Below, in pieces: positions 29,597 to 50,611 of a DNA stretch of 51,070 nucleotides. Source of the DNA: a virus; the IMG/VR virus record IMGVR_UViG_3300005096_000013, positions 1 through 51,070 of that record; one strand, written 5' to 3'. Numbering within the stretch: position 1 is the stretch's first letter; the number at the start of each line of letters is the position of its first letter. The translations under genes and the position numbers were made by a program. Under the pieces are notes generated by a model. That model made no database searches. It was not told the DNA's origin and worked only from the letters and a program-made list of their open reading frames with translations.

Positions 29597-29610
29597 GGAG
29601 CCCGGAGTCA
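29597..29610 (-). repeat. 14-bp repeat copy upstream of the lipoprotein gene
   Basis: GGAGCCCGGAGTCA differs at one position from the repeat. It lies across the end of the GroES-like gene and the gap before the lipoprotein gene. Confidence 0.75.
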
Positions 29611-30021
29611 ACCATTTTTTTTGTCAGGAATCCACTTCATCGTACCCAGTACGTCACTCTCTCGTATGAAAAGTAACGTAATCTTCCCAACCACAAGAGG
29701 TTGCCCGGCCATCCGACTCATCAATACGTAATCTCCTTCCTTGTAAAGTTTACATTCGGAGCCGATAGCCACTACTCTACCGTAAGGCATGGGTTCTTGG
29801 AAGGCATTGTCAGGCATAAAGATGCCTCCCTCTGTAACCTTACGTTGTTCAATTACCTGTACCATCAAGTAATAGGGAGAAGGCATAGGCACCGAAAGGT
29901 ATCCGGGTTCCCCTTTGGACTCCACAGGGATACTGTCGGGAGACTCCTTACGTTTAAGGGCAGCCTTCGCCGTCTTAAAATTCAAGGTTGATTTTCTGGA
30001 AGTCACTTTCTTTTTAGCCAT
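29608..30021 (-). CDS. GroES-like co-chaperonin (cpn10)
   Basis: A 137-residue protein whose C-terminal ~95 residues follow the cpn10 pattern: YYLMVQVIEQRKVTEGGIFM, then PYGRVVAIGSECKLYKEGDYV, then ITLLFIRESDVLGTM. In GroES these correspond to the first strand and mobile loop, the G-x-V-x-A-x-G strand and the E-S-D-I-L-A end. Such a protein would cap the host GroEL chamber and help fold the capsid, as T4 gp31 does. A basic 40-residue N-terminal extension (MAKKKVTSRKSTLNFKTAK) is atypical. ATG 30021 with AAAGGA is preferred to GTG 30060. Confidence 0.75.
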   Translation of the reverse strand: MAKKKVTSRKSTLNFKTAKAALKRKESPDSIPVESKGEPGYLSVPMPSPYYLMVQVIEQRKVTEGGIFMPDNAFQEPMPYGRVVAIGSECKLYKEGDYVLMSRMAGQPLVVGKITLLFIRESDVLGTMKWIPDKKNG

Positions 30022-30101
30022 ACGTACATCCTTTCGTAAAGGGTGGGAGCCCCGGCCCACATAGACCGAGACTCCCTATTGGAGATAATTAACTTGCGGG
30101 A

Positions 30102-41701: not shown

Positions 41702-42388
41702 TCAACTGAAAACCTCTAAAGGATTTAATGCTACTTTATATTTTATTGGAGCTTGACGTGTAGATTCCCATCGACCATCAAGGTAGTCCAACAGTAAAGA
41801 CCAGTGAACTTTAACAGCTTCAACAAGATGAGGCTTCCTACCGGGCAACAATATTGCAGGGTGGTAAGTTGCAAAGAACCTTGGATTGCCGGGTAACTCG
41901 GACAACTTAGCACCTTGTGAAGCAAAACCCTCTTTAAGAATTCGTCCAGTTACAGCCCTACAAGCCACTGCTCCTTGTACGAACAAGATAAGTTCCGAGT
42001 AGTAAGTAGATAACACTTTCATATCCTCAAGGAGATAGGGACGGCAACTCTTAATCTTGGAGTTAGTCGGTGTACTGTTCTGTTCAGGTCTGCACCTGCA
42101 AGCATTCGTAAGATAAACATCCACCTTTTCAGATAACTTCACCGAGTCCAGAAATCTGCAAAGCAACTGACCTGTCGGTCCAACCCACGACTTCCCTGCA
42201 ATATCTTCATGGTAGCCGGGAGCTTCACCTACTACCAGCACGGCCTTCTCATGATGGAGCCCGGAGTGACTCTCAACTTCATGTAACCTAGTAGGGAGCC
42301 CGGAGTGAACACACTGAGTCCACAATCCACACTTCTCGTTCTTGCAGGGATATGACACTCCGAAAATGTATGGCTCTACCTGTCCCAT
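41702..42388 (-). CDS. Uracil-DNA glycosylase, family 4 type
   Basis: A 228-residue enzyme that removes uracil from DNA. Signature pieces: VGEAPGYHEDIAGKSWVGPT near residue 53 (the G-E-x-P-G ... G-P-T-G loop), DVYLTNACRCRPEQN near 90 and FFATYHPAILLPGR near 173. Early cysteines (YPCKNEKCGLWTQC) and CRP/C residues fit the Fe-S cluster of family 4. Two exact repeat copies (42256, 42295) both encode His-Ser-Gly-Leu and flank a short stretch between the first cysteines and the catalytic loop. A role in protecting phage DNA or processing uracil is likely. Confidence 0.85.
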   Translation of the reverse strand: MGQVEPYIFGVSYPCKNEKCGLWTQCVHSGLPTRLHEVESHSGLHHEKAVLVVGEAPGYHEDIAGKSWVGPTGQLLCRFLDSVKLSEKVDVYLTNACRCRPEQNSTPTNSKIKSCRPYLLEDMKVLSTYYSELILFVQGAVACRAVTGRILKEGFASQGAKLSELPGNPRFFATYHPAILLPGRKPHLVEAVKVHWSLLLDYLDGRWESTRQAPIKYKVALNPLEVFS

Positions 42389-42675: not shown

Positions 42676-43031
42676 GACTGTTTCACCTCTCTTTCCATTT
42701 CAAGTTGAGTAATGAGTGAAGTAGGTTGGCCCGGCTGCAAAGGTATCTTCATCCAGACGGGTACGTACAGATGTTGGTTAGCCGAGACAAGCACTTGGGG
42801 AGATACACTGGAAGCTACTGACACTCCGGGCTCCTCTTTTACTTTGTGTTTGTCGAAGTCTTTCTTGGCCCTTCTTCTGTTGGCAGGCGTCACAGGCAAC
42901 GAAGTGTACTCGAATTCTTGCTCACTCCTTTGCAGTTTGTGCAGCGAGATTGCATGGTTCCGGTAACCTCCAAGGCTTCCACACACCTGTCCACAAGTCA
43001 AACATTGCACGTGTTCTTCTTTCTTTGCCAT
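42672..43031 (-). CDS. C2H2-type zinc-finger protein
   Basis: A 119-residue protein starting with CLTCGQVCGSLGGYRNH, which with HAISLH gives C-x2-C-x12-H-x4-H, a classic C2H2 spacing. The rest is charged and probably disordered. Such fingers in phages probably bind DNA or RNA. A near-exact repeat copy (42821-42834) encodes Glu-Pro-Gly-Val. ATG 43031 follows AAAGGAG. Confidence 0.6.
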   Translation of the reverse strand: MAKKEEHVQCLTCGQVCGSLGGYRNHAISLHKLQRSEQEFEYTSLPVTPANRRRAKKDFDKHKVKEEPGVSVASSVSPQVLVSANQHLYVPVWMKIPLQPGQPTSLITQLEMEREVKQS

Positions 43032-43435: not shown

Positions 43436-43884
43436 ATTTTTTTCTCCAATTCGGCCCGGTGTTTGAGGGCTACCCGGTGGGCCTTTTCCCTTGTAGCCAT
43501 AATTTCCAATATATCTTGAAGGTCCCTATCTTCCAACTCTTTGTACCAATAATAGAGTTTCTGAGAGTAGAGTAACAGGCTAGTATAAGACGTAGAGCTT
43601 CGTGACAATTCCCTTATGAAGTAGGGAGGTTGCTTCAGGTCGTAGCAAAATACCACGTATTTCCATATTGGGTAGGATGTGTGGTGCTTGGCGTTCCGGG
43701 CCAGTACGTAGTAGAGCGGCCCCGCCAACTTCCTACACTTGTAGCCTACTACACGAGAGACCTTTGCTGAAATGATAGAAGGTATGGGGTCCAGACGTAG
43801 AGCGGATAGCAGGACCTCGCGGGCTACTGTACGTTTGGGTTTCTTTGAATCTAGTACTCTTATCACTCCGGGCTCCTTAATCAT
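43396..43884 (-). CDS. Unknown protein next to the E1-like gene
   Basis: A 162-residue basic protein with aromatic-rich middle (YPIWKYVVFCYDLKQPPYF) and helical end (MATREKAHRVALKHRAELEK). It starts at ATG 43884 inside the end of the E1-like gene with AGGAG of the repeat itself nearby. An exact repeat copy (43863-43876) encodes Lys-Glu-Pro-Gly-Val at residues 3-7, so the repeat sits at the very start of the gene. Coupling to the E1-like gene makes it a candidate part of the ubiquitin-like cassette. Confidence 0.5.
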   Translation of the reverse strand: MIKEPGVIRVLDSKKPKRTVAREVLLSALRLDPIPSIISAKVSRVVGYKCRKLAGPLYYVLARNAKHHTSYPIWKYVVFCYDLKQPPYFIRELSRSSTSYTSLLLYSQKLYYWYKELEDRDLQDILEIMATREKAHRVALKHRAELEKKIWNQYQMGQYNDK

Positions 43885-44572
43885 AAGTCATTGACAATGC
43901 CAGTATGTTACAGTGAAGAACAGACTGAAGAGGCATGTAACGTAAATGTTGGGAGAAATAAGCAACCAACGTTGCTGCACACATGGAGGCACAGTAGAGA
44001 GTTGTCTTAGCGGTGCACCTGACTTTGGCTGCCTCCTCTTGGGGAAATAAGGATTTCTCATAGGCAGCGATGCTTTCAGAATCACGCTTGTAGCAAGATA
44101 ATATATCGTACTGCTCGGCGGCCAAGCGGGAGTCCAACCACAATACAGCTTCAGGACTACAGTCTTTCGATTTGAAAGCGTGAACAAAAATGCTTCGGCG
44201 GGCTGATATACTATCTACACAGCAGAAAGTGACAGCCTGTAAAGGTTTTGTAACTTCGTAACGAGTAGGTATTGCAGTCACTTCGATTTCCGGATAGATT
44301 CGGGTCATGTCATCTAGGCAGGCTGAGACTTTGAGCTGCCCTAACTGGTCAGGCCGAAAACCTTGAACCCCTAAGTTGGCTTCATCTACGGTGTCGTGGT
44401 CCCATAGGGTTATATGTTTTACACCCATAGCTGCAAGTATTAGAGCTACTTGCCTGCCTACTGCACCTACTCCGATGATTCCAACAGTTGTGTCTTGGAG
44501 CCATTGGTCGGGGAGAATATCCCACTGTCTTGCGTTACGTAATCCGAGAGTTGGTTCTTTAGTTTTTACCAT
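43877..44572 (-). CDS. E1-like ThiF/MoeB-family adenylyltransferase
   Basis: A 231-residue protein that should adenylate the C-terminus of a ubiquitin-like protein. Seen are the nucleotide loop GIIGVGAVGRQVA (G34-x-G-x-x-G39), WDHDTVDEANLGVQGF near 57-72, CCVDSISARRS (D and R of the ThiF core) and a later VRCTAKTTLYC whose Cys186 is a candidate catalytic thiol. The order L-F-P-x-x-E-A ... C-T-A-K/R belongs to bacterial ThiF proteins found beside JAMM and E2 proteins. ATG 44572 follows GAAAGGATT and lies two bases after the JAMM stop. Confidence 0.8.
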   Translation of the reverse strand: MVKTKEPTLGLRNARQWDILPDQWLQDTTVGIIGVGAVGRQVALILAAMGVKHITLWDHDTVDEANLGVQGFRPDQLGQLKVSACLDDMTRIYPEIEVTAIPTRYEVTKPLQAVTFCCVDSISARRSIFVHAFKSKDCSPEAVLWLDSRLAAEQYDILSCYKRDSESIAAYEKSLFPQEEAAKVRCTAKTTLYCASMCAATLVAYFSQHLRYMPLQSVLHCNILALSMTYD

Positions 44573-44574
44573 TG

Positions 44575-45510
44575 TTAATCCTTTCTTGTTTTTGCTTCTT
44601 CCACGCTTGCTACTTCTACAAGTTTACCTCCGACTTCTTCCTTTTCCTCCTCGAAGGACAGGTCAAAATATTCTTCAACTACGTCGAGATAGCACTTAGG
44701 ACACTTCCAATCCATATACTCCAAGGCTTTAAGAGAGATTGTAGCGTTGCAAGCCGGGCATTCCATCGTGCCCGACACTCCGAAGTCCTCTTTCAGAAGG
44801 TCTATGTAAACTTCTCTGGTATCCCAAAGTTCTTCATCATAACCTCCTTGATAACAGCCTTTAGGGTCAAAGGGAGGACATAAGAAGTTTGTAGGTGGAA
44901 GGGTTGTGACTTGCTTCTCGTAAAGCTCTTTCCAGTGCTCTTTATCTTGTTGGGAAACTCCGGGGAAAGGCTGGTCCCAAGCGATTTCGGCATGAAGGTT
45001 GATAAAACCTACCGGACTTTTGGTTGGAGAATATTGGAGTCGAATATAGGCTCCCGTGAGGTTCTGGTCAAGGATACACATTACTGCCCATGACATCTGG
45101 CTGTAAGTACGCATGAAGGTATCCTCGTCCGTACCGCTGGGGTTAGTCCCCATACCCGGATGGGTGTGTATCCAGACTCTTGAACTTCGGTAAGGAGGAA
45201 TGCCTTCAAGGGCGGCTTCAGCTATCAGGTCGTTCACGCTGTCTTGGTTGAGGTCTACGACTGCTCCCCCTACTTGTTGGACCGGCAAGAGGATGTCCTC
45301 TACACAGAGCAGGTCGTCCTCCATAGTTTGGCCAAAGCAACTCACCTCGCAATCCTCCCTCTGGTTTCGGAAGAAGGAAAGTTTTGCCCATGCGTAGGGC
45401 GTGAACCTCAAGGCCGGATTGCTGGGCAGTTTCAGGAATTGGCGGGGTTGCTGAACAGCCGAATACTGTTCCTTCTTTGACTCTTGCTTTTTCCTTTTAC
45501 CTTTCTTCAT
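44575..45510 (-). CDS. JAMM/JAB-family deubiquitinase-like metallopeptidase
   Basis: A 311-residue protein. The zinc site is complete: Glu55 in EVSCFG, then H115-T-H117 with S125 and D128 in HTHPGMGTNPSGTD (H-x-H-x7-S-x2-D). It should cleave isopeptide or C-terminal bonds of a ubiquitin-like protein. A C-terminal zinc ribbon (ECPACNATISL ... KCPKCYLD) is added. ATG 45510 overlaps the E2 stop as ATGA, so the two are coupled; the longer frame from 45573 has a weaker start. The surrounding sequence resembles JAMM proteins from bacterial ubiquitin-like operons. Confidence 0.85.
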   Translation of the reverse strand: MKKGKRKKQESKKEQYSAVQQPRQFLKLPSNPALRFTPYAWAKLSFFRNQREDCEVSCFGQTMEDDLLCVEDILLPVQQVGGAVVDLNQDSVNDLIAEAALEGIPPYRSSRVWIHTHPGMGTNPSGTDEDTFMRTYSQMSWAVMCILDQNLTGAYIRLQYSPTKSPVGFINLHAEIAWDQPFPGVSQQDKEHWKELYEKQVTTLPPTNFLCPPFDPKGCYQGGYDEELWDTREVYIDLLKEDFGVSGTMECPACNATISLKALEYMDWKCPKCYLDVVEEYFDLSFEEEKEEVGGKLVEVASVEEAKTRKD

Positions 45511-46811
45511 GCTTCTTGGCTCCTTTCTTCTAGACAAGTTTCGCATAATCCATCTTCTAAAGCTGTAGGACAAAATAGTTTATCACAGGACTTACAGGGG
45601 ACGAAATGTTCTTCATAACATGTGGCACAAAAGAGTTCCCCACATACATCACAATATTCTTCGCAGTCACCACATACATAGTCCGTACATTCACTGCAAT
45701 TCTTTAAGCACTCAGTGCAGAATTCTTCTTTACAGTCAACACATTCTTCCATACAGTCAGGACATGCTACATGGCCACATTCAGTACATTCTTTGGTACA
45801 GTCTGGACAAAGAGTCTCTCCACAGATATGGCAAGTGGTACGTGTGCAGAGAGTACAGACAGCTCTTCCACAGTGGTCACATGCAGTCATGCAGTCAGGG
45901 CAGGCTGCCTCATCACAGAAAACACACACTTCCAACGCCTCGTCGAGGTAGGTTTCATTACAGCAGGAACAATCCGAAGATGTATAGCCTGCCATTGTTG
46001 CAATAGTTCTATAAGCTCCTTCACGTTCGTATCCGTGCAACACTCCTATCACTATCTGGAGAGCGGGGTAGAACAGCCCTTGAGACATGAGTTGTTGGTA
46101 AGCAGCTAAGTGTTTGCCAAGACATAGGTCTCTCCCATTTGTATGGGGATGAATTTCACCGTCCTCATCCATGAAAGTCTCCTTCATGGATTCTATATCA
46201 CATTGAGAATTACTACGTGAGGTGATAAGAGGGAGGACAATACGGAAAGGCCCGAATGAGAGGCTTAAATCGTCAACTTGAGGCATGTCTTCAAAGAGCT
46301 CGAAAGCCGGTATCTCGACAGTCAAAAGGTTTGCAATAGAGGCTTCCTCGATGCTCAGAATCTCCGAACCATAATTGAGAGAAGGTGTGTTAAACAGTCC
46401 TCCTTTAGAAGTAGGAGGCTCATCCAGTATCCATTGTAGATTCTGGTAGATGTCAGATACCTGTGGCTTTGAATATTTGGAGGATGCTATAATACACCCT
46501 TTGCGGAACTCCAAGAGTTGGCTAGACCGTCGCATAAGTTCTTTGATTATTGTTCTCTGCCTTCGCAAGATAGTTCTGAAAGTTTTGTTGGAAGTGAGGA
46601 AACCCTCTGAAGGGAGTTCAAAGGGTAAAGTTGTAGAGTTTCTAGCCACATAACCCTGGGTATCCAGCCATTGGCTATTGAATTGAGCATCTGCGAAGGT
46701 GCGATGTCGAGAGGCTATCTTCTCAGCAAGTCTCCAGAGAGGTTTAGAGTAACCTCTATTCTTTGGAGGTGAACGTTTGATTTTAGGTTCTTCAATTTCA
46801 ACAGTCATCAT
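45507..46811 (-). CDS. E2-like protein fused to a tandem zinc-knuckle array
   Basis: A 434-residue protein. Around residues 185-262 it follows the E2 pattern: FGPFRIVLPLI (beta sheet), then EIHPHTNGRDLCLG with H221-P-H, Gly and candidate catalytic Cys230, then a helical end. After CSCCNETY near 281, seven to eight C-x2-C-x4/5-C-x2-C units follow (ACPDCMTACDHCG, CHICGETLCPDC, CTECGHVACPDC, CVDCKEEFCTEC, CSECTDYVCGDC and others), up to residue 426, which could bind many zinc ions like cross-brace (RING-type) fingers. ATG 46811 with TAGGAG is preferred to 46853. E2 with E3-like function in one chain is inferred. Confidence 0.7.
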   Translation of the reverse strand: MMTVEIEEPKIKRSPPKNRGYSKPLWRLAEKIASRHRTFADAQFNSQWLDTQGYVARNSTTLPFELPSEGFLTSNKTFRTILRRQRTIIKELMRRSSQLLEFRKGCIIASSKYSKPQVSDIYQNLQWILDEPPTSKGGLFNTPSLNYGSEILSIEEASIANLLTVEIPAFELFEDMPQVDDLSLSFGPFRIVLPLITSRSNSQCDIESMKETFMDEDGEIHPHTNGRDLCLGKHLAAYQQLMSQGLFYPALQIVIGVLHGYEREGAYRTIATMAGYTSSDCSCCNETYLDEALEVCVFCDEAACPDCMTACDHCGRAVCTLCTRTTCHICGETLCPDCTKECTECGHVACPDCMEECVDCKEEFCTECLKNCSECTDYVCGDCEEYCDVCGELFCATCYEEHFVPCKSCDKLFCPTALEDGLCETCLEERSQEA

Positions 46812-46865
46812 TGGATTTGCTCCTAGTAAAGTAGGGAGGGTACCTCGGAGCACCCTCCCATTAAC

Positions 46866-47123
46866 TCAGTTGCCTTCCATCTTAGCCAAGCCAACCGTGA
46901 GAGTATCGCCCTCGTTGACTGTAGCCAAAGACTCTTCGGGATGGATAGTTTCCCAACCGGGGCAACCTGCTCTCCGGATTCTGATAGCGTGCTGGGCAGG
47001 ATTGTAACCTCCCACGTTCCCTAAAACATCATTGAGGATGTCCACTATCAAACTGTCTTCCGCGACAGCAATCCTTTCCATTCCCCCCGTTCCAGTCGTG
47101 TCAATAACCCTTACGTGCACCAT
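46866..47123 (-). CDS. Ubiquitin-like (beta-grasp) protein
   Basis: An 85-residue protein with a beta-grasp pattern: VHVRVIDTTG and MERIAVAEDS (beta hairpin), LIVDILNDVLGNVGG (helix), AIRIRRAG, then ESLATVNEGDTLTVG, a classic Ub/ThiS strand pair. It lies at the head of the E2, JAMM and E1 chain, as Prok_Ub-type proteins do. The C-terminus is Met-Glu-Gly-Asn with no di-glycine; a single Gly before Asn could be exposed by processing. ATG 47123 follows AAAGGAG. It is probably the modifier that the other genes attach and remove. Confidence 0.7.
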   Translation of the reverse strand: MVHVRVIDTTGTGGMERIAVAEDSLIVDILNDVLGNVGGYNPAQHAIRIRRAGCPGWETIHPEESLATVNEGDTLTVGLAKMEGN

Positions 47124-48261: not shown

Positions 48262-48278
48262 TGTCCGATAATCGGACA
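48262..48278. promoter_or_regulatory. Palindromic operator TGTCCGATAATCGGACA (copy 1)
   Basis: A perfect 17-bp palindrome around a central base, between two leftward genes and 14 bases upstream of the 67-residue gene. Five such sites occur, all upstream of leftward genes. Confidence 0.75.
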
Positions 48279-48279
48279 A

Positions 48280-48495
48280 TTAGTTTTGATAGGCTCCAAG
48301 CCCTGCGTCCTCCGCATACTTCTCTGCTTCGTCATAATCCCAGCAGTCAGCGGTAGGGGATATACACCAAGGATGCCCACAGTAAGGGCAAGAGACAAGG
48401 TCCTGGTGAGGAGGGCAAAAGATGGTCTGGCCACAGATAGGGCAGGGGGTGGTACATTCTTGCCCCTCACGGATAAGTAGTTTGGGTCGTTTCAT
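48280..48495 (-). CDS. Small zinc-ribbon protein (71 aa)
   Basis: A 71-residue protein with CPICGQTIFCPP and SCPYCGHPWC, two C-x2-C-G knuckles as in zinc ribbons, and an acidic end. ATG 48495 with GAAAGGACC is preferred to ATG 48510. It could bind RNA polymerase or nucleic acid; the role is unknown. Its stop lies one base after an operator copy. Confidence 0.55.
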   Translation of the reverse strand: MKRPKLLIREGQECTTPCPICGQTIFCPPHQDLVSCPYCGHPWCISPTADCWDYDEAEKYAEDAGLGAYQN

Positions 48496-48506
48496 GGTTG
48501 GTCCTT

Positions 48507-48917
48507 TCAAACTAGATGGATTACTTTTACCATTGTATCTAATTTGACCCCGACGTTCTCGCGATACATGCTAACGAGCTCCTCGTCATCTTTGGGAGTG
48601 GTTTCAAACTTGACAGGCACAATACCGTAGGCTTCAAAGGCTAAAGAAAGAGGGACGGTAGGTTCCAGCCAGATGGCTATCTTTCCCCGAATAAGAGGAG
48701 CCGTGGGGGTTTTATAGACAGGAATTTCAAGGTGAGATTCTCCTAATTCTACATTGAACCAGTCAAAAGCAGAGTAGATAAGAACTCTCCCCAGGTAGCT
48801 TGATGGAGTTTTAGTCTCGATGGCTGGTACAAAAGTTGCCCTCACTAAAACATTGTCCATCAACCAATTTACGGCTTGAGGGTACCGTGCGATTACAACA
48901 TACTGTTTGTTTGGCAT
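48507..48917 (-). CDS. Unknown protein (136 aa) under operator control
   Basis: A 136-residue beta-rich protein (MPNKQYVVIARYPQAVNWLM ... KIAIWLEPTVPLSLAFEAYG). ATG 48917 follows GAAAGGAG, with an operator copy 14 bases upstream (48931-48947). No family recognised. Confidence 0.55.
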   Translation of the reverse strand: MPNKQYVVIARYPQAVNWLMDNVLVRATFVPAIETKTPSSYLGRVLIYSAFDWFNVELGESHLEIPVYKTPTAPLIRGKIAIWLEPTVPLSLAFEAYGIVPVKFETTPKDDEELVSMYRENVGVKLDTMVKVIHLV

Positions 48918-48930
48918 GAATGCTCCTTTC

Positions 48931-48947
48931 TATCCGATTATCGGACA
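48931..48947. promoter_or_regulatory. Palindromic operator (copy 2, one base off)
   Basis: TATCCGATTATCGGACA differs from the palindrome consensus at one position. It lies 14 bases upstream of the 136-residue gene. Confidence 0.65.
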
Positions 48948-48956
48948 AACATGGTT

Positions 48957-48970
48957 GGAGCCCGGAGTGA
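48957..48970 (-). repeat. 14-bp repeat, last copy in the window
   Basis: Exact GGAGCCCGGAGTGA lies directly after the stop of the 121-residue gene and ahead of operator copy 2. No copy is found to the right of it. Confidence 0.85.
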
Positions 48971-48971
48971 C

Positions 48972-49337
48972 TCATTGCTTTGATGCCAAGGCTTGTTGCA
49001 GGGCGACTCCGAGCGGTTGACCTGTGGGCAGGTCGTTTTCCACCTTTACGTGCCCACGCATGAGCCGTACCTCTCGTAGGAAGTGGGAACGCAAGGCTTG
49101 GGCGTCCTCAAGAGAGAGATAGGCTCTGGTCTTGCGTGGTATGGCCTTGCTGGTCTTGCGACCCCACGGTTTGGGGTTGAACAGGGCCACGTCCTTGCAG
49201 AGCATTGAGGAATGCCCTTTGTTGTGGTAGATGTCTGCTGTGGACGGCCCACCAGGTGGGGGCGGGATGGTCCGTACCTTGTGGACACGACCCCTACTCA
49301 TAGGGACGAGACCGTATTTCTTTGTAATGTTTTCCAT
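48972..49337 (-). CDS. First gene of the leftward early block, unknown (121 aa)
   Basis: A 121-residue basic protein (MENITKKYGLVPMSRGRVHK ...) with a proline-rich turn (VRTIPPPPGGPSTADIYHNK) and a helical C-terminal half (LSLEDAQALRSHFLREVRLM). ATG 49337 follows GAAAGGTGG, with an operator copy 20 bases upstream (49357-49373) and a consensus promoter about 190 bases upstream. First-gene position suggests an early takeover or regulatory function. No family recognised. Confidence 0.6.
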   Translation of the reverse strand: MENITKKYGLVPMSRGRVHKVRTIPPPPGGPSTADIYHNKGHSSMLCKDVALFNPKPWGRKTSKAIPRKTRAYLSLEDAQALRSHFLREVRLMRGHVKVENDLPTGQPLGVALQQALASKQ

Positions 49338-49356
49338 GCTTTGCCACCTTTCAAAA

Positions 49357-49373
49357 TGTCCGATAATCGGACA
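49357..49373. promoter_or_regulatory. Palindromic operator TGTCCGATAATCGGACA (copy 3)
   Basis: A perfect palindrome between the DnaA-box cluster and the first leftward gene. Confidence 0.75.
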
Positions 49374-49400
49374 AGTTATCAGTTATCCATTGTTTGGTTT

Positions 49401-49431
49401 TGTGGATAACCTGTGGATAACATGTGGATAA
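49401..49431 (+). other. Origin-like cluster: three DnaA boxes
   Basis: TGTGGATAA occurs at 49401-49409, 49412-49420 and 49423-49431, exactly the complement of the DnaA box TTATCCACA, spaced 11 bases (one helical turn) apart. Near-boxes TTATCCATT lie at about 49383 and 49450. An AT-rich stretch (about 49494-49552) follows. This is a good candidate replication origin, flanked by operator copies 3 and 4. Confidence 0.6.
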
Positions 49432-49476
49432 CTTTTACTCAGCTATCCGTTATCCATTATTCACCGTGGCTCAAAA

Positions 49477-49493
49477 TGTCCGATTATCGGACA
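49477..49493. promoter_or_regulatory. Palindromic operator TGTCCGATTATCGGACA (copy 4)
   Basis: A perfect palindrome framed by GGCTCAAAA (49468-49476) and TTTTGAGCC (49508-49516), a nine-base inverted repeat. It lies downstream of the leftward promoter start region, where a bound repressor would block transcription. Confidence 0.75.
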
Positions 49494-49529
49494 AATAAAA
49501 CTATAACTTTTGAGCCATTTCATACATAT

Positions 49530-49557
49530 ATTATACCACGGATTTTAGATTTGTCAA
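49530..49557 (-). promoter_or_regulatory. Consensus sigma70-like leftward early promoter
   Basis: On the minus strand TTGACA (49557-49552) and TATAAT (49535-49530) are perfect consensus boxes separated by 16 bases. Transcription would start near 49522 and run leftward through operator copies 4 and 3 into the first early genes. The strongest promoter visible in the window. Confidence 0.75.
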
Positions 49558-49615
49558 GTCGACGAATAAGCCTAAATTGTTGCCCTGCAAGAGTTTACGT
49601 TTTTGCTGCTTAACG

Positions 49616-50500
49616 TTAAGCAGTGTGTCTTTTTGAGCCATTTTGGCGCTGTTGGTGCGCTGCGTCAAGCGCTGAAAACGTGGTAGAAATATCTTGAGCG
49701 CTGAATCCGGCCGCACCAAGGGACAAACCAGCAATGCGACGACGAAAATCCACACCAAAGGTGTTTTTGGCCAAACTCTCACGCAGGACCTCTAAGTATT
49801 CGGATTCATCCAACATCGCCAGCAAGTTTCGGACTACCCAAAGCCGGGCGGCGTTGGGAAGCTCGGTAACTTGGTCAAAGAGGGTAACCCGTTGCTTGTC
49901 TAAATCCAACGACACGTCTGGCCCGCGCTTAGCTAGCTCATCGGCTTTGTCCTCGACCGATGGCTTATCCGGACCTTTTTTGTCTGGATTCTCATCCGGA
50001 CCTTTATCGTCGGGTTTTTTTGGGGGGGTTTTGGGTGCCAAGCCGTACCTTTTTAGGACGGTAGAACGGCGCTTTTTACCCTTATCCCAATATCCGGCAG
50101 CCAAGTCGGCGCGTAATTTACGCGCGTTGGCTTTGGAAAGCTTGTTGACCGGCAAAGCGACCAGTTTATCGACCTCACTTTCCGTGATTTTCAGCGCTTT
50201 CTCGGTATCGGGTTGCAATTCCAGGAGTTTCCACGAGCGGGAAAATTTGCGCCTATCAAAATCATCCAAACCTATCTGCCTCTTTGCGTAATCCAGAACT
50301 GCTTTACGCAATAATTCTGGATTGTAGTCACCTTCCCGCGCGCGGTAAACTTCCTTATACGCGCTGACCAGTTTTAGGTAAGCCCGCCCGAGCGCTGTGC
50401 CAGCTGCGCGCCAACCGCACAAAGCAGTTGAGGTAGCCTCGCGCTCGTGAGCCGATAATTCGATGATGATTTTTGCGGTTCTTGCTTTTTTTGTTGCCAT
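49616..50500 (-). CDS. Unknown 294-residue protein between inverted repeats
   Basis: A 294-residue Lys/Leu-rich helical protein with a proline-rich linker in the middle (APKTPPKKPDDKGPDENP). The N-terminal part (ATKKARTAKIIIELSAHERE) and helices such as VDKLVALPVNKLSKANARKL suggest a nucleic-acid-binding protein. Codon use has more GCG/CGC than the rest. ATG 50500 has a weak GAAAGTGAG site. Operator copy 5 lies 24 bases upstream and a promoter about 110 bases upstream, so it may repress itself; it is my best candidate for the regulator binding the operators, or for a replication initiator. No family is recognised. Confidence 0.5.
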   Translation of the reverse strand: MATKKARTAKIIIELSAHEREATSTALCGWRAAGTALGRAYLKLVSAYKEVYRAREGDYNPELLRKAVLDYAKRQIGLDDFDRRKFSRSWKLLELQPDTEKALKITESEVDKLVALPVNKLSKANARKLRADLAAGYWDKGKKRRSTVLKRYGLAPKTPPKKPDDKGPDENPDKKGPDKPSVEDKADELAKRGPDVSLDLDKQRVTLFDQVTELPNAARLWVVRNLLAMLDESEYLEVLRESLAKNTFGVDFRRRIAGLSLGAAGFSAQDISTTFSALDAAHQQRQNGSKRHTA

Positions 50501-50523
50501 TTTTTGCTCACTTTCTGGCCAGT

Positions 50524-50540
50524 TGTCCGATTATCGGACA
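50524..50540. promoter_or_regulatory. Palindromic operator TGTCCGATTATCGGACA (copy 5)
   Basis: A perfect palindrome between the predicted promoter (50612-50638) and the start of the 294-residue gene. Confidence 0.75.
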
Positions 50541-50611
50541 ATTTCAGCCATATTGTGCAAGGCAACAATTTAGGCTTATTCGCTTATTCAATTGTTAAAG
50601 AGCCTACAACC

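Follow-up and report, generated by a model that had tools for sequence, protein, structure and literature searches.

Bacterial conjugation of ubiquitin-like proteins (Ubls) is known mostly as an anti-phage defence. The locus described here raises the question of whether a phage can carry a working conjugation cascade of its own, and what such a cascade would tag. The window, that is, the whole stretch of DNA analysed, is a linear virus record of 51,070 bases. Among its gene products are the large subunit of a terminase (phrog_38, 1e-57) and a DNA polymerase of family A, and it also has PD-(D/E)XK nuclease genes. The terminase is only 20-24% identical to those of known phages, and the phage is previously unseen. 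The leftward half of the window contains genes for a UDG, a MazG-like and a SprT-like protein together with small genes without assignment; a GroES-like co-chaperonin is encoded at 29608-30060 (phrog_3188, 1.1e-13). Relatives of the DNA polymerase were sought in Planctomycetota and none was found, a result that taken alone is uninformative on the host, and single-sequence patterns run over viral contigs found nothing directly related to the E2, E1 or DNA polymerase of the window.

The first-pass annotation had described four consecutive leftward genes coupled by overlaps. We confirmed all four ORFs, which run leftward without interruption through 43877-47123 in the order Ubl, E2-like protein, JAMM peptidase and ThiF-type E1, with a Shine-Dalgarno-like sequence present at each gene on direct reading. 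The coupling holds for one pair only: E2 and JAMM overlap by 4 nt, whereas JAMM and E1 are spaced by 2 nt and Ubl and E2 by 54 nt. The features of the cassette and its upstream region are as follows.

46866..47123, minus strand: predicted Ubl of 85 aa, ThiS-like beta-grasp (Planctomycete Ubl profile)
46869..46883, minus strand: codons of K81-M-E-G84-N85, predicted processing/activation site (family invariance and sequence reading)
45507..46811, minus strand: E2-like conjugating enzyme of 434 aa (family profile 1.3e-43; core alone 3.9e-16)
46122..46151, minus strand: E2 catalytic motif H221-P-H223 ... C230 (family invariance and UQ_con alignment)
45534..45971, minus strand: Cys-rich, putatively zinc-binding tail of E2 (36 Cys, 17 CxxC)
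44575..45510, minus strand: JAMM/JAB peptidase of 311 aa, from the ATG at 45510 (family profile 2.3e-48)
45127..45168, minus strand: JAMM zinc site H115-x-H117-x7-S125-x2-D128 (invariant in 13 family members)
44692..44760, minus strand: C-terminal CxxC...CxxC of JAMM, zinc-ribbon-like (sequence; weak IBR match)
43877..44572, minus strand: E1-like adenylating enzyme of 231 aa, ThiF fold (Pfam ThiF 1.5e-23; family profile 3.7e-64)
49530..49557, minus strand: consensus sigma-70 promoter TTGACA-16-TATAAT with extended -10 (consensus scan)
48262..50552, no strand: operator-like palindrome T(G/A)TCCGATWATCGGACA in five copies, upstream of the cassette, where the leftward genes start

Comparison with HMM families, suggested by the first-pass annotation as a check, succeeded for the E1 (ThiF, 1.5e-23) and reached only a sub-threshold match of JAMM to Prok-JAB, while the Ubl and the E2-like protein matched no Ubl or E2 family in Pfam, PHROGs or NCBIfam, so that their annotation required relatives. 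We searched 392 Planctomycetota genomes and found E1 in 17 and E2 in 16 of them; a single genome can hold as many as six E1 copies. A Sedimentisphaerales contig (L058), found in the genome scan, shares the window architecture of Ubl, E2, JAMM and E1; its E1 is 39% identical to that of the window, its Ubl ends in KIHGGIG, and its E2 contains HPHVSNETLCEG and a Cys-rich tail. The same four-gene operon is present at 19 loci whose neighbourhoods were read. The Planctomycete operons (L058, L092-L110) agree with the window in which genes they contain and in what order, in having homologues of all four proteins (E1, JAMM, E2 and Ubl), in the catalytic residues, in the Cys-rich E2 tail and in the K-x-E/Q/H-G end of the Ubl. 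They differ in lying in bacterial genomes, where most loci adjoin integrases and an AAA ATPase gene, the latter often standing in front of the operon (Pfam AAA 1e-28), and in having 7-25 Cys in the E2 tail versus 36 in the window, which also has an extra CxxC pair in JAMM and a one-residue Ubl tail. Since homologous four-gene operons exist in Planctomycetota and the scores of the window proteins against the family lie far above shuffled controls, the cassette is well beyond chance. Related Ub operons of Planctomycetes and other bacteria have been mentioned earlier (PMC4197634, PMC7159879). Apart from its E1, JAMM and ThiS-like folds, the family is missing from Pfam, NCBIfam, PHROGs and PADLOC. 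As judged from sequence, the window cassette is a phage-carried member of this uncatalogued Planctomycete-type Ubl-E2(Zn)-JAMM-E1 cassette.

The window Ubl scores 15.7 bits against the Planctomycete Ubl profile, versus 6.0 for the best of 2000 shuffles, and hhalign aligns it to the family at 83%, up to Gly84. One family homologue (L095) matches Pfam ThiS (8.7e-7), and the top four matches of the family in the PDB are SAMP2/MoaD-type beta-grasp proteins, none of them significant. This homology to a ThiS-matching family favours the earlier assignment of the gene product as a beta-grasp Ubl. Near their C-terminus the family proteins carry an invariant K[IVM][EQH]G, after which 1-36 residues remain, with K81 and G84 invariant in 16 Ubl sequences; in the window Ubl, which lacks a GG tail, Asn85 is the sole residue after Gly84. 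Searching phages with the window Ubl by tblastn returned chance matches to lysins only.

The E2-like protein is comprised of an N-terminal helical region, a UBC-like core and a Cys-rich tail of 154 residues that is absent from the earlier description. Because the tail is Cys-rich, we scored the core alone against the family profile, and it remained well separated (3.9e-16) from the next window protein (0.5). The HPHTNGRDLCLG motif reported before is present; it belongs to an HPH-x6-C-x-G pattern, of which HPH, C and G are invariant in 17 family members, and the HPH...C aligns with the HPN...C of Pfam UQ_con E2s. The hhalign match between the family core and UQ_con (83%, score 39.5) is local, covering 52 columns that span HPN/HPH..C.G and YN..S, and its score was not approached by controls: 200 shuffles of the columns reached no more than 21.4 (0/200 as high) and six unrelated families no more than 11.4. 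The alignment indicates that the core of the window family is homologous to known E2s around HPN..C, as a local match only. The family core has no PDB sequence match and no Pfam E2 match, and AlphaFold gave a pLDDT of 32 for the window core from a two-sequence alignment. Motif scans with HPHxNG...C[LI]G produced chance matches only, in wrong frames or on wrong strands, and tblastn of E2 against plasmids found haloarchaeal Cys-rich proteins through the zinc tail only. Comparable Cys-rich tails occur both in the relatives from Planctomycetes and in fusions with UQ_con E2s. The latter were observed at three Planctomycete loci (L119, L121, L122), where Pfam UQ_con E2s are fused to CxxC-rich tails and JAMM proteins lie a few kb off, a second E2-zinc architecture.

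The JAMM peptidase has the complete zinc site that had been claimed: HTHPGMGTNPSGTD is present, plus Glu55 (codon at 45346-45348), which is invariant like H115, H117, S125 and D128. The JAMM family profile matches archaeal and eukaryotic Rpn11 (1.3e-8). The C-terminal CxxC...CxxC of the window protein, which the first reading did not mention, is absent from the aligned relatives. The ThiF match likewise bears out the proposed ThiF-type E1, in which the catalytic Cys186 lies in CTAKTT and is invariant (column 185 of the family alignment). The E1 tree places the window inside the Planctomycete operon group with 99/98 support, on a long branch (1.86) and apart from the crAss-like group. Additionally, a Calditrichota contig (L060:6959-7144) was found to carry only a C-terminal remnant of a window-type E1, near an integrase-like protein gene.

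Two known systems had been named as counterparts. PRTRC, or operon type 6d of Iyer 2006, likewise combines Ubl, E2-like, JAB and ThiF proteins; however, the window ThiF protein reaches 48.9 bits against a TIGR03736 cut-off of 144.75, and in the window E2 the HPH precedes the Cys, the opposite of PRTRC-B, where the His follows the Cys (Iyer 2006, PMC1779556; one PRTRC-B sequence, L055, was read for this comparison). We therefore reject the PRTRC type. ParB-related and other PRTRC genes were not recognised among the window genes scanned (part of the ORFs). The likeness to Bil (BilABCD) is valid for the content of Ubl, E2, JAMM and E1 genes, in which the cassette also resembles eukaryotic Ub cascades, but does not extend to the Ubl, the E2 motif or the E1 architecture. 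Bil is characterised by a tandem Ubl, a CEHH motif in BilB and a two-domain E1, BilD (PMC11354881), while the window Ubl is one domain of 85 aa versus the two tandem Ubl domains of BilA, and the window E1 is a single ThiF domain of 231 aa versus the inactive and active adenylation domains of BilD; a Bil assignment was rejected as well. Bacterial and archaeal Ub operons with a RING E3 (Burroughs 2011; Caldiarchaeum) are similar in that a zinc module accompanies the E2, and an archaeal Rpn11 homologue is the closest PDB match of the window JAMM. Their RING E3 is a separate protein, whereas in the window Cys-rich repeats, in which no RING was recognised, are fused to E2.

A parallel arrangement exists in other phages. 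The window E1 matched 71 phage records by tblastn, including Flavobacterium psychrophilum phages (Fipvunavirus), crAss001, other Steigviridae and uncultured relatives, and a further 42 loci came from searching viral contigs with an alignment. The block (loci L001-L010 and L013-L054) sits in the replication region, with the order primase, short protein, HSH..C.G protein, JAMM, E1, unassigned protein and UDG in most, and simple patterns detect all four signatures in 27 of the 31 tabulated loci. This crAss-like/Fipvunavirus cassette (crAss001 gp79-gp76) resembles that of the window in being phage-borne, in gene order, in its homologous E1 (3e-45 to the window) and JAMM, which matches Rpn11 in the PDB (2e-4), and in a conserved Gly after the candidate Ubl. 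It differs in that the short protein, the Ubl candidate, continues for 40-200 residues after the conserved K..SG that closes its N-terminal domain, and in that the candidate E2 has HSH..C and no Cys-rich tail. The window Ubl and E2 have no detectable match among the crAss-like proteins. AlphaFold modelled crAss001 gp78 with a pLDDT of 81 from 30 sequences; because neither a PDB fold match nor a PDB profile match was found for it, we leave it as a candidate E2. We also observed group I introns (Rfam RF00028) near the JAMM gene at L027:3513-3772, L043:4716-5018 and L050:3438-3684; the JAMM gene is split in the intron region in several crAss-like contigs, and that of L030 is also split, without an Rfam match.

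The E1 of this block is labelled thiamine biosynthesis in annotations, and the window E1 itself also matches ThiF/MoeB models. Together with the ThiS match of the Ubl family, these matches would fit a sulfur-carrier pathway, in which the ThiS-like Ubl and ThiF-like E1 deliver sulfur and JAMM merely matures the carrier; JAMM-matured carriers have been proposed (PMC1779556). We consider this very unlikely, given that an E2-like protein with an invariant HPH..C always adjoins, that the annotated genes include no recognised sulfurtransferase or acceptor enzyme, and that the crAss-like thiamine label derives from the ThiF fold and nothing else.

The genomic setting bears on the remaining readings. 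The cassette is embedded in a one-strand leftward run with the UDG and MazG-like genes and is flanked by phage genes on both sides. Its GC content equals, and its codon usage resembles (z -1.4 to 0.8), that of the other leftward genes of the phage; by this measure it does not resemble a newly inserted segment. Two other leftward genes, at 876-2063 and 49616-50500, deviate in codon usage (z about 6) and are possibly recent arrivals. The promoter at 49530..49557 lies upstream of the leftward run and would drive the cassette; the palindrome copies are found at 48262-48290, 48931-48959, 49357-49385, 49477-49505 and 50524-50552. Based on the consensus promoter, the upstream palindromes and the gene content, the cassette is likely expressed early. 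A further repeat, GGAGCCCGGAGTGA, occurs in both orientations, at 42256, 42295, 48097 and 48957 (plus) and at 42822 and 43864 (minus).

That a host stretch was misjoined to the phage contig, or that the cassette is a decaying passenger, would be compatible with a metagenomic contig whose relatives are bacterial, yet the cassette is the only part common to the window and the bacterial loci, its GC and codon usage are those of the phage, phage genes flank it in a single-strand run, and all active sites are intact. We regard this explanation as next to negligible: the cassette is real, intact and phage-borne, and the initial proposal of a phage-borne Ubl/E2/JAMM/E1 set, in a leftward operon of early type, is supported.

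A bacterial anti-phage Ubl system, Bil-like or CBASS-conjugation-like, might instead have been acquired as cargo to exclude superinfecting phages. The Planctomycete relatives are sporadic and multicopy and lie near integrases, recombinases or TniB/TniQ-like genes (the latter named by eye), CBASS E1-E2 models give a weak match to the window E1, and Ubl conjugation protects against phages in other systems (PMC10097602). Weighing against defence cargo, PADLOC has no model for the Ubl or the E2, the codon-matched cassette within the UDG/MazG-like run is no isolated insert, and the analogous crAss-like block is placed among core replication genes; this origin appears unlikely. A decoy role in counter-defence, in which the phage would use these proteins to strip a host Ubl defence or compete with it and would run no conjugation of its own, is highly improbable: JAMM is a deconjugase-type enzyme and bacterial genomes carry close relatives, but a full set with intact E1 and E2 active sites exceeds what a decoy needs.

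The reading we favour is that the phage probably carries a working Planctomycete-type Ubl-conjugation cascade, which would tag targets early in infection. We infer its chemistry from the observed gene set and order, the homology of all four proteins to their Planctomycete counterparts, the conservation of all catalytic residues and the profile alignment of the E2 core with UQ_con E2s. JAMM would trim the Ubl by one residue, Asn85, to leave Gly84 at the C-terminus, which E1 would adenylate, holding the Ubl as a thioester on Cys186. The Ubl would then be handed to Cys230 of E2, where HPH may take the role of HPN in eukaryotic E2s, while the Cys-rich zinc tail may give specificity as a substrate- or E3-like module built into the enzyme. 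Conjugation to target proteins would take place early in infection, and JAMM could remove the tag. Each of these steps is standard for the families named. The targets may be host or phage proteins tagged during infection; our guess, drawn solely from the neighbouring genes and from where the comparable block lies in crAss-like phages, is a target in early DNA metabolism or a host factor acting on it.

A broader proposal takes two cases together, the Planctomycete-type cassette of the window and the primase-Ubl-E2-JAMM-E1-UDG block of crAss-like and Flavobacterium phages. Such cascades could be a recurrent core phage module that arose or was acquired at least twice and tags proteins during replication in every infection, overlooked because its E1 is labelled thiamine biosynthesis. 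We put this forward tentatively, as possible though somewhat doubtful; the wider crAss-like pattern is the more exciting and the less proven part.

In open full texts, which leave most subscription journals outside coverage, we found no paper on a phage-encoded ubiquitin-type E1 or E2. A phage encoding its own E1-E2-JAMM-Ubl set would reverse the picture of Ubl conjugation as a defence, and the cassette, with its four genes, offers a compact setting in which to study which proteins a phage tags and to what end. Since several crAss-like phages grow on cultured Bacteroides, the wider question is directly testable.
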